Part shown: positions 19,984 to 22,143 of the stretch, one piece after another
Layout: every line of letters starts with the position of its first letter
Numbering within the stretch: position 1 is the stretch's first letter
DNA from: Pseudomonadota bacterium
Lineage (GTDB): Bacteria > Pseudomonadota > Gammaproteobacteria > Steroidobacterales > Steroidobacteraceae
DNA: 64,000 nt
Assembly: GCA_021779535.1 (NCBI GenBank)
Contig: JAJYAM010000003.1
Span: forward strand, 1-64,000
Direction of reading: 5' to 3'
Notes under the pieces: model-generated
What the model saw: the letters and a program-made list of their open reading frames with translations, nothing else
The model's database searches: none
Told to the model about the DNA's origin: nothing
Translations under genes and position numbers: made by a program

Positions 19984-22005
19984 TCAGCGCTCGATCAGGA
20001 CGCGATCGCGGGCGACGGGCCGGTCGACGCCGAGACCGAGGTCGCGCGCGACCGCATGCGCCGAGTACACGGCGGCGGCGATGATCGACGGCTGGCGGCA
20101 ATCGCCGATGCGCACCACCCGGGAGTCCGGCGCGGCGCCGCCGGGTCCGGCGAGTGCGGCGTGCAGCGCATCGTCCGGCTCCCGCGACGTGACGAGCACC
20201 AGCGCATCGGCGCCCCACGCCGCGCCGCGGCCGGTGAACACGCACTCGGCCCGCAGCGTCGCGCCGTCGAACCCGACGACCGCCGTGCTGACCAGGATCT
20301 CGATGCCCGCCTCGAGCATTCCGCGTTGCGTGCGCCGCTGCTCGGCCGTGTGGCTGCTCCATTCGCCGGCTCGACCGGCGGTCGTCACGTAGCGCACGTG
20401 CGCGCCGGCGCCGGCGAGCGCGAGCGCGATCACCGGGCCGAGGTAATAGTGATCGTCGTCGAAGACGACGACGCGGCCCTGGGGCCGGAGGCCGTCCATC
20501 ACGTCGTCCGGCGTATACACGCGCTCCGGTCCGAGCGCGATCGGGCGCGCGTGCCAGCGACCGGTCCCGTCGCGCCGCCAGCGCGCGCCGGTCGCGATCA
20601 GCACGTGATCGACGGCGAATTCGCGGATCGTCGCCGCGTCGATTGCGCTGCCGTAGTAGGTCGCGACGTTCGCCATCCGGGCGATCTGGCCGACCCGGTA
20701 GTCGCGCACCCGCGCCCAGGCTCCAAGCCCCGGCAGACGACTCTCGCGGCTGACGCGTCCGCCGGGCAACGGCTCCCGGTCGGCGAGCGACACGTCGAAA
20801 CCGCGGCGCCCGAGCACGTGCGCGGCTTCGAGCCCCGCCGCGCCGGCACCGACGATCAGCACCGAGCCGCGCCCGTCCGGAACGCGTTCGGGGTGCCAGC
20901 CGCGGCGCCACTCCTCGCCGATCGTCGGGTTCTGGGTGCAGCGGATCGCCGCGCCGCGCGCATCGTGCGCATAACACACGTTGCAGCCGATGCACTCGCG
21001 AATCTCGTCGATCCGGCCGTCGCGGATCTTGCGCGGCAGGAACGGATCGGCGATCGAGGGGCGCGCCGCGCCGACGAGATCGACGACGCCGCTGCGAACC
21101 TGGCGCAGCATCGCATCCGGCGAGGTGAAGCGCCCGACGCTCACGACGGGCCGGCCGGTGAGCCCCCGTGCGGCGCGCACGCGGCTCTCGAGCGCGCCTT
21201 CCTCGACGAAGCGCGACGACCCCATTTCCTCCTCGTAGTCGCCGATCACGAGGTCCCACAGATCCGCGAGCGGACCGAGCGAGGCGAGCAGCTCGTGCGC
21301 CTCCTCGCCGGTCAAGTGCTCGTCGCCGTGGCCGTCGGCGGAGAATCGCGCCGCCACCGCGCAGCGGTCGCCGACCGCGTCGCGGGTCTCCTCGAGCAGC
21401 TCACGGAACAAGCGCGCCCGGTTCGCGAGCGGCCCGCCATATTCGTCCCGCCGGTCGTTCAGGCTTCGGGACAGGAACTCCGCGAGCAGGTAGCCGTGGG
21501 TCGGGTACACGTACACGATGTCGAAGCCCGCCTCGCGCGCGCGGCGCGCGGCGGCCCGGTGCCATTCCTTCAGGCGGCGAATGTCGGCGCGATCCATGCG
21601 TTGCGACTGGATCGGGTCCTCCCGCGACGGCATCGAGCGCACGCCGAGCGAGGCCGCGCGCGTCGCCAGGTTCGCGACGTAGCTGCCGCCGTGCCACAAC
21701 TCGATCCCGGCGAGCGCGCCGTGCCGGTGGACGCCTGCGGCGATCCTGGCCAGGTTGGCAACGTCGCCGTCGTCCCAGATGGAAGCGAACGGGTAGGGAT
21801 GATCGTCCGAGCTCGGATGGATCGAGCAATATTCGGTGCAGACGACGCCCCAGCCGCCTTCGGCCTTCACCTCGCGCAGCGCCGCCAGGGTGTGCGGCAA
21901 GGCATGCCCCATGCCGGTGCAGTGCGGGACCTGGTAGAAGCGGTTCGGCGCGGTGACCGGCCCGATCCGCAGGGGTTCGAACAGCGGCGCAAATCGAGCG
22001 TCCAT
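19984..22005 (-). CDS. Trimethylamine/dimethylamine dehydrogenase-like iron-sulfur flavoprotein
   Basis: A 673-residue member of the Old-Yellow-Enzyme-plus-reductase family, closest in motifs to trimethylamine and dimethylamine dehydrogenases. The N-terminal barrel has NRFYQVPHCTGMG, with C29 at the position of the 6-S-cysteinyl-FMN cysteine, CTEYCSIHPSSDD (Y59), ELWHGG (W104), and VYVYPTH (Y167, H170). A 4Fe-4S site follows (C338, C341, C344, C356 in RECIGCNVC and RCTQNP), then EEWRRGWHPER and an ADP-binding region with VLIVGAGAAGLEAA. Characterised relatives oxidatively remove a methyl group as formaldehyde. Two Trp of the substrate cage described for trimethylamine dehydrogenase seem replaced (Y257, H347 region), so the substrate may differ. 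ATG 22005 follows GAGGA; TTG 22011 is less likely. Confidence 0.86.
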   Translation of the reverse strand: MDARFAPLFEPLRIGPVTAPNRFYQVPHCTGMGHALPHTLAALREVKAEGGWGVVCTEYCSIHPSSDDHPYPFASIWDDGDVANLARIAAGVHRHGALAGIELWHGGSYVANLATRAASLGVRSMPSREDPIQSQRMDRADIRRLKEWHRAAARRAREAGFDIVYVYPTHGYLLAEFLSRSLNDRRDEYGGPLANRARLFRELLEETRDAVGDRCAVAARFSADGHGDEHLTGEEAHELLASLGPLADLWDLVIGDYEEEMGSSRFVEEGALESRVRAARGLTGRPVVSVGRFTSPDAMLRQVRSGVVDLVGAARPSIADPFLPRKIRDGRIDEIRECIGCNVCYAHDARGAAIRCTQNPTIGEEWRRGWHPERVPDGRGSVLIVGAGAAGLEAAHVLGRRGFDVSLADREPLPGGRVSRESRLPGLGAWARVRDYRVGQIARMANVATYYGSAIDAATIREFAVDHVLIATGARWRRDGTGRWHARPIALGPERVYTPDDVMDGLRPQGRVVVFDDDHYYLGPVIALALAGAGAHVRYVTTAGRAGEWSSHTAEQRRTQRGMLEAGIEILVSTAVVGFDGATLRAECVFTGRGAAWGADALVLVTSREPDDALHAALAGPGGAAPDSRVVRIGDCRQPSIIAAAVYSAHAVARDLGLGVDRPVARDRVLIER

Positions 22006-22085
22006 CGGCAATGTGTCCTCGGGTGCCGAGCGGCGCCTGCTCCCGACCGCCGGCGCTTCGGTCGACGGACCGGAATGGCGTCCTG

Positions 22086-22105
22086 AATTATATGATCATA
22101 TAATT
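22086..22105. promoter_or_regulatory. 20-bp perfect palindrome, probable operator between divergent genes
   Basis: AATTATATGATCATATAATT reads identically on both strands and lies in an AT-only patch within otherwise very GC-rich DNA. It sits between the divergently transcribed TMADH-like gene (start 22005, minus) and the MttB-like gene (start 22144, plus). A perfect inverted repeat of this length in a divergent promoter is best explained as the binding site of a dimeric repressor or activator. No regulator gene is adjacent, so the protein is unknown. Confidence 0.72.
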
Positions 22106-22125
22106 TAATATATTTTCATATAACT
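22106..22125. promoter_or_regulatory. Second, imperfect copy of the palindromic operator
   Basis: The right arm (TCATATAACT, 22116-22125) matches the right arm of the upstream palindrome at nine of ten bases; the left arm (TAATATATTT, 22106-22115) matches at about six of ten. The half-site TCATATAA is repeated exactly 20 bases apart (22096 and 22116), about two helical turns, so two dimers could bind on the same face of the DNA. The MttB-like start codon is 18 bases beyond it, so occupancy would probably block transcription or translation initiation of that gene. Confidence 0.55.
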
Positions 22126-22143
22126 TGCCTGAGGAGCGCACCC

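Follow-up and report, generated by a model that had tools for sequence, protein, structure and literature searches.

The 64,000-nucleotide stretch of DNA analyzed here (the window) carries a tandem palindromic operator in the control region between two divergent genes, encoding an amine-dehydrogenase-like flavoprotein and an MttB-superfamily methyltransferase, and this operator probably serves a quaternary-amine regulon in which the most likely regulator is a TetR-type protein, F7, that would repress both genes until released by a ligand. The original prediction, that this palindrome is an operator, holds up on the evidence presented below, and a specific candidate regulator can now be added to it. 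Operator control by TetR-family proteins is a known kind of regulation; we found no description in open-access papers of the present operator, of a regulon including the MttB/flavoprotein pair, or of a TetR regulator fused to a decayed pathway enzyme. As aerobic quaternary-amine demethylation is an active question, it is useful that a putative operator, its target genes and a candidate regulator with an unusual architecture, in which a TetR domain is followed by a pseudo-enzyme apparently derived from the pathway's own oxygenase, are now defined for direct testing. The features of the locus are as follows:

19984 to 22011, minus strand: TMADH/histamine-dehydrogenase-like FMN/4Fe-4S flavoprotein, 675 aa (Pfam Oxidored_FMN and Pyr_redox_2)
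22086 to 22105, no strand: operator 1 (putative), perfect 20-bp palindrome with the 16-bp core TTATATGATCATATAA at 22088-22103
22108 to 22123, no strand: operator 2 (putative), imperfect copy ATATATTTTCATATAA, 20 bp downstream of operator 1
22131 to 22136, plus strand: probable RBS GAGGAG of the MttB gene, by direct reading; the GAGGA core is kept in L003, L004 and L016
22144 to 23655, plus strand: MttB-superfamily methyltransferase without pyrrolysine, 503 aa, TTG start (Pfam MTTB, 1e-51)

The perfect palindrome, AATTATATGATCATATAATT, is identical to itself on reverse complementing, and is followed by its imperfect copy exactly as originally described. The half-site TCATATAA, which had been said to recur at a distance of 20 bp, occurs only twice on the plus strand of the window, at 22096 and 22116 and thus at exactly this distance, such that the site as a whole takes the form of two tandem copies of TTATATG-NN-CATATAA. 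The surrounding patch is also as nearly GC-free as had been claimed, with 4 G/C in the 40 bp from 22084 to 22123 compared to 70.8% GC in the window; the next GC-poorest 40-mer elsewhere contains 16 G/C, leaving the palindrome patch as the only GC-poor patch in the window. The palindrome core has one match in the window, with none expected from shuffles, and a genome search found it to be unique in the 2.93-Mb, 127-contig assembly. We note, however, that two GC-rich 20-bp palindromes are also present in the window and that first-order Markov shuffles often yield one, so a perfect 20-bp palindrome is not in itself rare, and the significance of this one comes from its base composition and its conservation. 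Considering that such palindromes are not rare in 64 kb of GC-rich DNA, a chance AT-rich sequence or the remnant of a mobile element might be envisaged; yet shuffles predict no match, many genomes conserve the site at the same functional positions, and no repeat family of the site exists elsewhere in the genome. We give this origin next to no credence, and regard it as refuted by the conservation.

The flanking genes had been called TMADH-like and MttB-like, and both assignments are borne out by Pfam domains and solved relatives. Among proteins of known structure, the flavoprotein is closest to histamine dehydrogenase (E = 7e-192) and to trimethylamine dehydrogenase (E = 3e-149), with alignments over 650+ residues to 3k30, 6de6 and 6l6j that cover the full two-domain fold, and Cys31 and Cys340/343/346/358 are invariant in 13 orthologs. 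This Cys set and fold place the protein, as judged from its sequence, in the TMADH/histamine dehydrogenase family, with flavinylation predicted. The MttB-like protein is a member of the MttB superfamily (PF06253 spans residues 9-490, 1e-51) that scores 203 bits against the pyrrolysine TMA methyltransferase model TIGR02369, under the cut-off of 525, and it is related to the solved structures of TMA methyltransferase (1e-34) and of glycine betaine methyltransferase (4e-24). Being pyrrolysine-free and encoded beside an amine-dehydrogenase-like gene, it resembles the corrinoid-dependent demethylation systems of the same superfamily, MtgB, MtcB and MtyB (PMC8604678, PMC12478193), but its gene differs from these in being paired with a TMADH/histamine-dehydrogenase-like flavoprotein and in carrying the present operator.

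The divergent flavoprotein/MttB pair is retained in nearly all close Gammaproteobacterial orthologs examined, in surroundings that are otherwise unrelated. The two genes stand in tandem in some Rhodobacteraceae, and in Leisingera, Ruegeria and Shimia they flank ABC-transporter genes at a distance of ~5.5 kb from each other. The Leisingera MttB gene stands divergent to a gene for a Rieske oxygenase, which is a homologue (38% identity) of F2, the Rieske oxygenase of the core cluster introduced below; this independently suggests that F2 belongs to one pathway with MttB and the flavoprotein. A second MttB/flavoprotein pair, in tandem, was also seen in G058 (L054:15315-19133), where a weaker AT-rich site precedes either gene (matrix scores of 17.6 and 15.6).

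Conservation in orthologous intergenic regions is one of the points on which the original prediction stands or falls, and on this point it stands. Two YTATATR-NN-CATATAR dyads are common to the regions upstream of orthologous MttB genes, their tandem layout being found in 10 further intergenic regions beyond the window. In G110 and the genus of the window (L059-L062, L087, L090) the two dyads are 20-21 bp apart, and lineage g18 and related genomes (L075, L077, L091, L121) space them by 31 bp. Outside the window, the perfect palindrome proper survives in L003/L059 alone, which are one and the same genome, and the conserved part is the dyad form. The spacings of the dyads amount to two or three helical turns, as would be expected for cooperative binding to one face of the DNA. 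Upstream regions of orthologs from other lineages lack the AT operator at this gene pair, and the Alphaproteobacterial orthologs carry other palindromes, TTTGAGCGCTCAAA and TTGACTGAACAGTCAA, which indicates that the operator is lineage-specific.

As separate observations on these upstream regions, TTTGAGCGCTCAAA lies upstream of MttB in Leisingera, Ruegeria and Shimia (L084-L088, L105, L111, L115, L118), often together with a second copy, TTTGAGCGATCACTCAAA, and other Alphaproteobacterial orthologs (L076, L092, L095, L117, L119, L120, L122) have a BetI-like TTGACTGAACAGTCAATCAA motif near the MttB start. Gammaproteobacterial orthologs that are without the AT operator (L066, L068 and L072, which form lineage g9, and L067, L070 and L071) share a repeated CGTAGTTTSC or GTTTGTGCAA upstream.

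The suggestion that the genome and its relatives be searched for similar sites proved fruitful, in that the same site is present at other quaternary-amine genes in about 25 genomes. Using a single-site pattern over 158 related genomes (genome-wide counts are from pattern searches), we found recurrent and often paired sites, numbering 0-4 per genome in the family and lying mostly 20-150 bp upstream of start codons. All 25 readable loci of the class-III aminotransferase F3 have a site upstream of this gene, with no more than 3 mismatches and ~35-105 bp away, and most of them have a second site closer to the usually divergent gene for F2, which is betaine/carnitine-monooxygenase-like. This main target of the predicted regulon is a member of the GbcA/CntA superfamily of Rieske oxygenases (glycine betaine and carnitine monooxygenases). 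Around these promoters lies a core cluster encoding the GbcA/CntA-like F2, the class-III aminotransferase, two FAD oxidoreductases, a GCV_T-type protein, an aldehyde dehydrogenase and a Pot-like ABC transporter, which is adjoined in some genomes by a carnitine 3-dehydrogenase scoring above its NCBIfam cut-off. Further sites occur between genes for a TonB-dependent receptor and a TPR-sulfotransferase (L228 and L233, with L217 similar). The assembly of the window genome, G000, does not include the Rieske|aminotransferase promoter, and a weaker site is found in it upstream of a TonB-receptor-like gene (G000:C29:5859), the product of which shares only ~28% identity with the receptor encoded in the other genomes. 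In lineage g18, we also observed a TPR-sulfotransferase gene adjoining the flavoprotein gene (L091:1532-3700, the same gene as L054:13017-15185); a related one is a predicted regulon target beside the TonB receptor in L228/L233.

To connect the window site with these promoters, we rely on a matrix, TTATATGNNCATATAA, that was built from 46 F2|F3 sites at 25 loci, with no MttB sites included; it was symmetrised, both arms being visible in single sites as well. Applied to the 64-kb window, it matches best at 22088-22103, with 46.1 bits, and second best at 22108-22123, with 27.7 bits; the next-best matches (15 bits or less) overlap the two operators, and nothing non-overlapping comes near. Similarly, when seven ortholog loci were scored as 504 segments of 270 bp, a score of 18 was exceeded only in five MttB|flavoprotein intergenic regions. 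Sequence comparison thus places the window site and the F2|F3 sites in one quaternary-amine (betaine/carnitine-type) regulon. A flavoprotein/MttB pair that is uncharacterised, and whose conservation extends from Gammaproteobacteria to Rhodobacteraceae, is thereby connected to this regulon, which narrows the search for the substrate of the pair.

An AT-rich island at such a place could also be a conserved promoter core, made of tandem TATAAT-like elements read in both directions, rather than the operator of a repressor, a reading to which its location between two divergent genes, the distance of most sites from start codons and the perfect -10 hexamer included in CATATAAT all lend themselves. 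However, what is conserved is a 16-bp dyad with both arms maintained around a free 2-bp center, repeated at helical-turn distances and largely confined to one functional regulon, and neither a consensus sigma-70 promoter nor a -35 partner was found at the window site. In addition, an ordinary promoter core would be expected at many unrelated genes, which the counts of 0-4 sites per genome argue against, and we therefore consider this explanation highly improbable compared to that of an operator.

The best candidate for the protein binding this operator is F7, the sole regulator in the core cluster. It comprises ~500-560 aa, with TetR_N, a BetI-type TetR_C_6 domain and then a Rieske/ring-hydroxylase-like half, and, as judged by frame length, is encoded without interruption in 26 of the 31 genomes; little beyond the TetR half is present in G016, G001, G024 and G048. 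The regulator gene had been predicted not to be adjacent to its operator, and the F7 gene of the window genome is indeed on another contig (G000:C96), where 439 residues are readable at 76% identity before the contig end cuts the gene. In Pfam searches with L219, L231 and the G000 copy, L215, TetR_N scores 21-23.5 bits, just below the cut-off of 24, and TetR_C_6 scores 48-55 bits, well above the cut-off of 27. F7 is thereby predicted to combine a TetR_N HTH with a BetI-type C-terminal domain and is encoded in the regulated cluster, as is expected of the regulator in a TetR/BetI-type pair, while the counterpart expected at the target promoters, a palindromic operator, is putatively provided by the site that the matrix describes over 25 loci. 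No clear site, and hence no autoregulation, was seen in the regions next to F7.

F7 and the sites occur together. In 96 family genomes, both are present in 25, F7 only in 6, the site only in 7 and neither in 58 (odds ratio 35, uncorrected for phylogeny), and several genomes that carry F7 but have no close site (G003, G007, G076, G090) have variants with 2-3 mismatches at the predicted place. G006 (96% complete) has an intact operator, with F7 and its cluster not in the assembly, and in G022 F7 is missing, with the cluster running off a contig end. The MAG L103 encodes a stand-alone TetR, the closest to the TetR of F7 (34%) among those compared, ~550 bp upstream of, and divergent to, its MttB gene, and two sites lie 21 bp apart in the MttB upstream region, scoring 29 with the F2|F3 matrix.

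It is also conceivable that the sites are the operator of another regulator: F11/F12, a stand-alone BetI-type TetR by the carnitine 3-dehydrogenase gene; a TetR-aldehyde dehydrogenase fusion (G000:C40); a TetR encoded divergently from MttB paralogues; or a protein outside the TetR family. F11/F12 likewise co-occurs with the sites (odds ratio ~33 in 70 genomes) and is found near the MttB locus in lineage g18, and the MttB-paralogue TetR is present in both G006 and G022, which are without F7. Set against this, F11/F12 is absent from G000 (99% complete), G006 and G022, is a fragment in G013 and goes undetected in G048, all of which bear sites, and we rejected it as the cognate regulator. The TetR-aldehyde dehydrogenase fusion is present without sites in G004 and G020 and undetected in the site-bearing G016, G053 and G069, and its loci and those of the MttB-paralogue TetR carry other palindromes (TGAATGAACGTTCATTCA, TTAAACGTACGTTCAA) that reach only 9-13 bits, such that both were rejected on their distribution and their different palindrome. 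Overall, we consider a regulator other than F7 unlikely. Two isolated leads were also set aside, namely an AsnC/Lrp-family-like gene by a tandem match in G084, a single case from a raw sequence reading, and a tandem pattern match in the AT-rich genome G188, which we judged to be chance.

Returning to F7 as the candidate repressor, its TetR half is strongly conserved and its Rieske half is not, with mean identities among nine sequences of 75% and 37%, respectively. In the Rieske half, C-x4-H stands in place of the C-x-H of F2, with the first Rieske His position lost, and the DNYLESYHVPIGH iron site (the 2-His-1-carboxylate segment) is lacking, whereas F2 keeps both motifs. The C-terminal half thus departs from the C-x-H ... 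C-x2-H pattern and iron site that mark an active Rieske oxygenase, making such activity unlikely, and is only distantly in the same superfamily as GbcA and CntA, as a copy without the catalytic ligands. Among the open-access papers listed by literature searches, none was relevant to a TetR-Rieske fusion. As to its regulator half, F7 is similar to BetI, the TetR-family choline/betaine repressor (TIGR03384, PF13977), in pairing TetR_N with a BetI-type TetR_C_6, in scoring best against BetI, and in its predicted targeting of betaine-type catabolic genes. It reaches 68.1 bits against a cut-off of 201, however, and is thus BetI-like rather than BetI proper, with a different predicted operator and a fusion to a Rieske-like domain.

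The arrangement of the operator recalls that of known tandem-site TetR-family operators (for instance, QacR-type paired dimers), in which palindromic half-sites with a short spacer are bound by two dimers phased by helical turns. The window operator is similar to these in half-site layout and helical phasing, but its sequence, regulon and regulator architecture are new within the searches made. We propose that F7 dimers would bind one per dyad, cooperatively and on the same helix face, and that by covering the AT-rich core with its TATAAT-like hexamers they would repress both divergent genes. A substrate-like quaternary amine (betaine, carnitine or similar) would then release F7, and may be sensed by the TetR core, the pseudo-oxygenase domain, or both. 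It is quite possible, if just short of probable, that F7 acts as a one-component sensor, a TetR repressor whose C-terminal domain, sensory or redox in function, was recruited from a catalytically dead paralogue of the Rieske oxygenase of the pathway, with the window tandem operator as its binding site. If so, a pathway enzyme would have given rise to its own regulator.

Finally, we note two further arrangements of BetI-type regulators. The fusion on G000:C40 (L234:7851-9941, minus strand) joins a BetI-type TetR to a full aldehyde dehydrogenase in 696 aa (Pfam TetR_N, TetR_C_6 and Aldedh) and is a second regulator-enzyme fusion in this genome, with long frames resembling it in many relatives. 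MttB paralogues with an adjoining divergent BetI-type TetR are found in several genomes (L207, L208 and L204; G006, G022 and G110), and these TetR loci carry the TGAATGAACGTTCATTCA palindrome.
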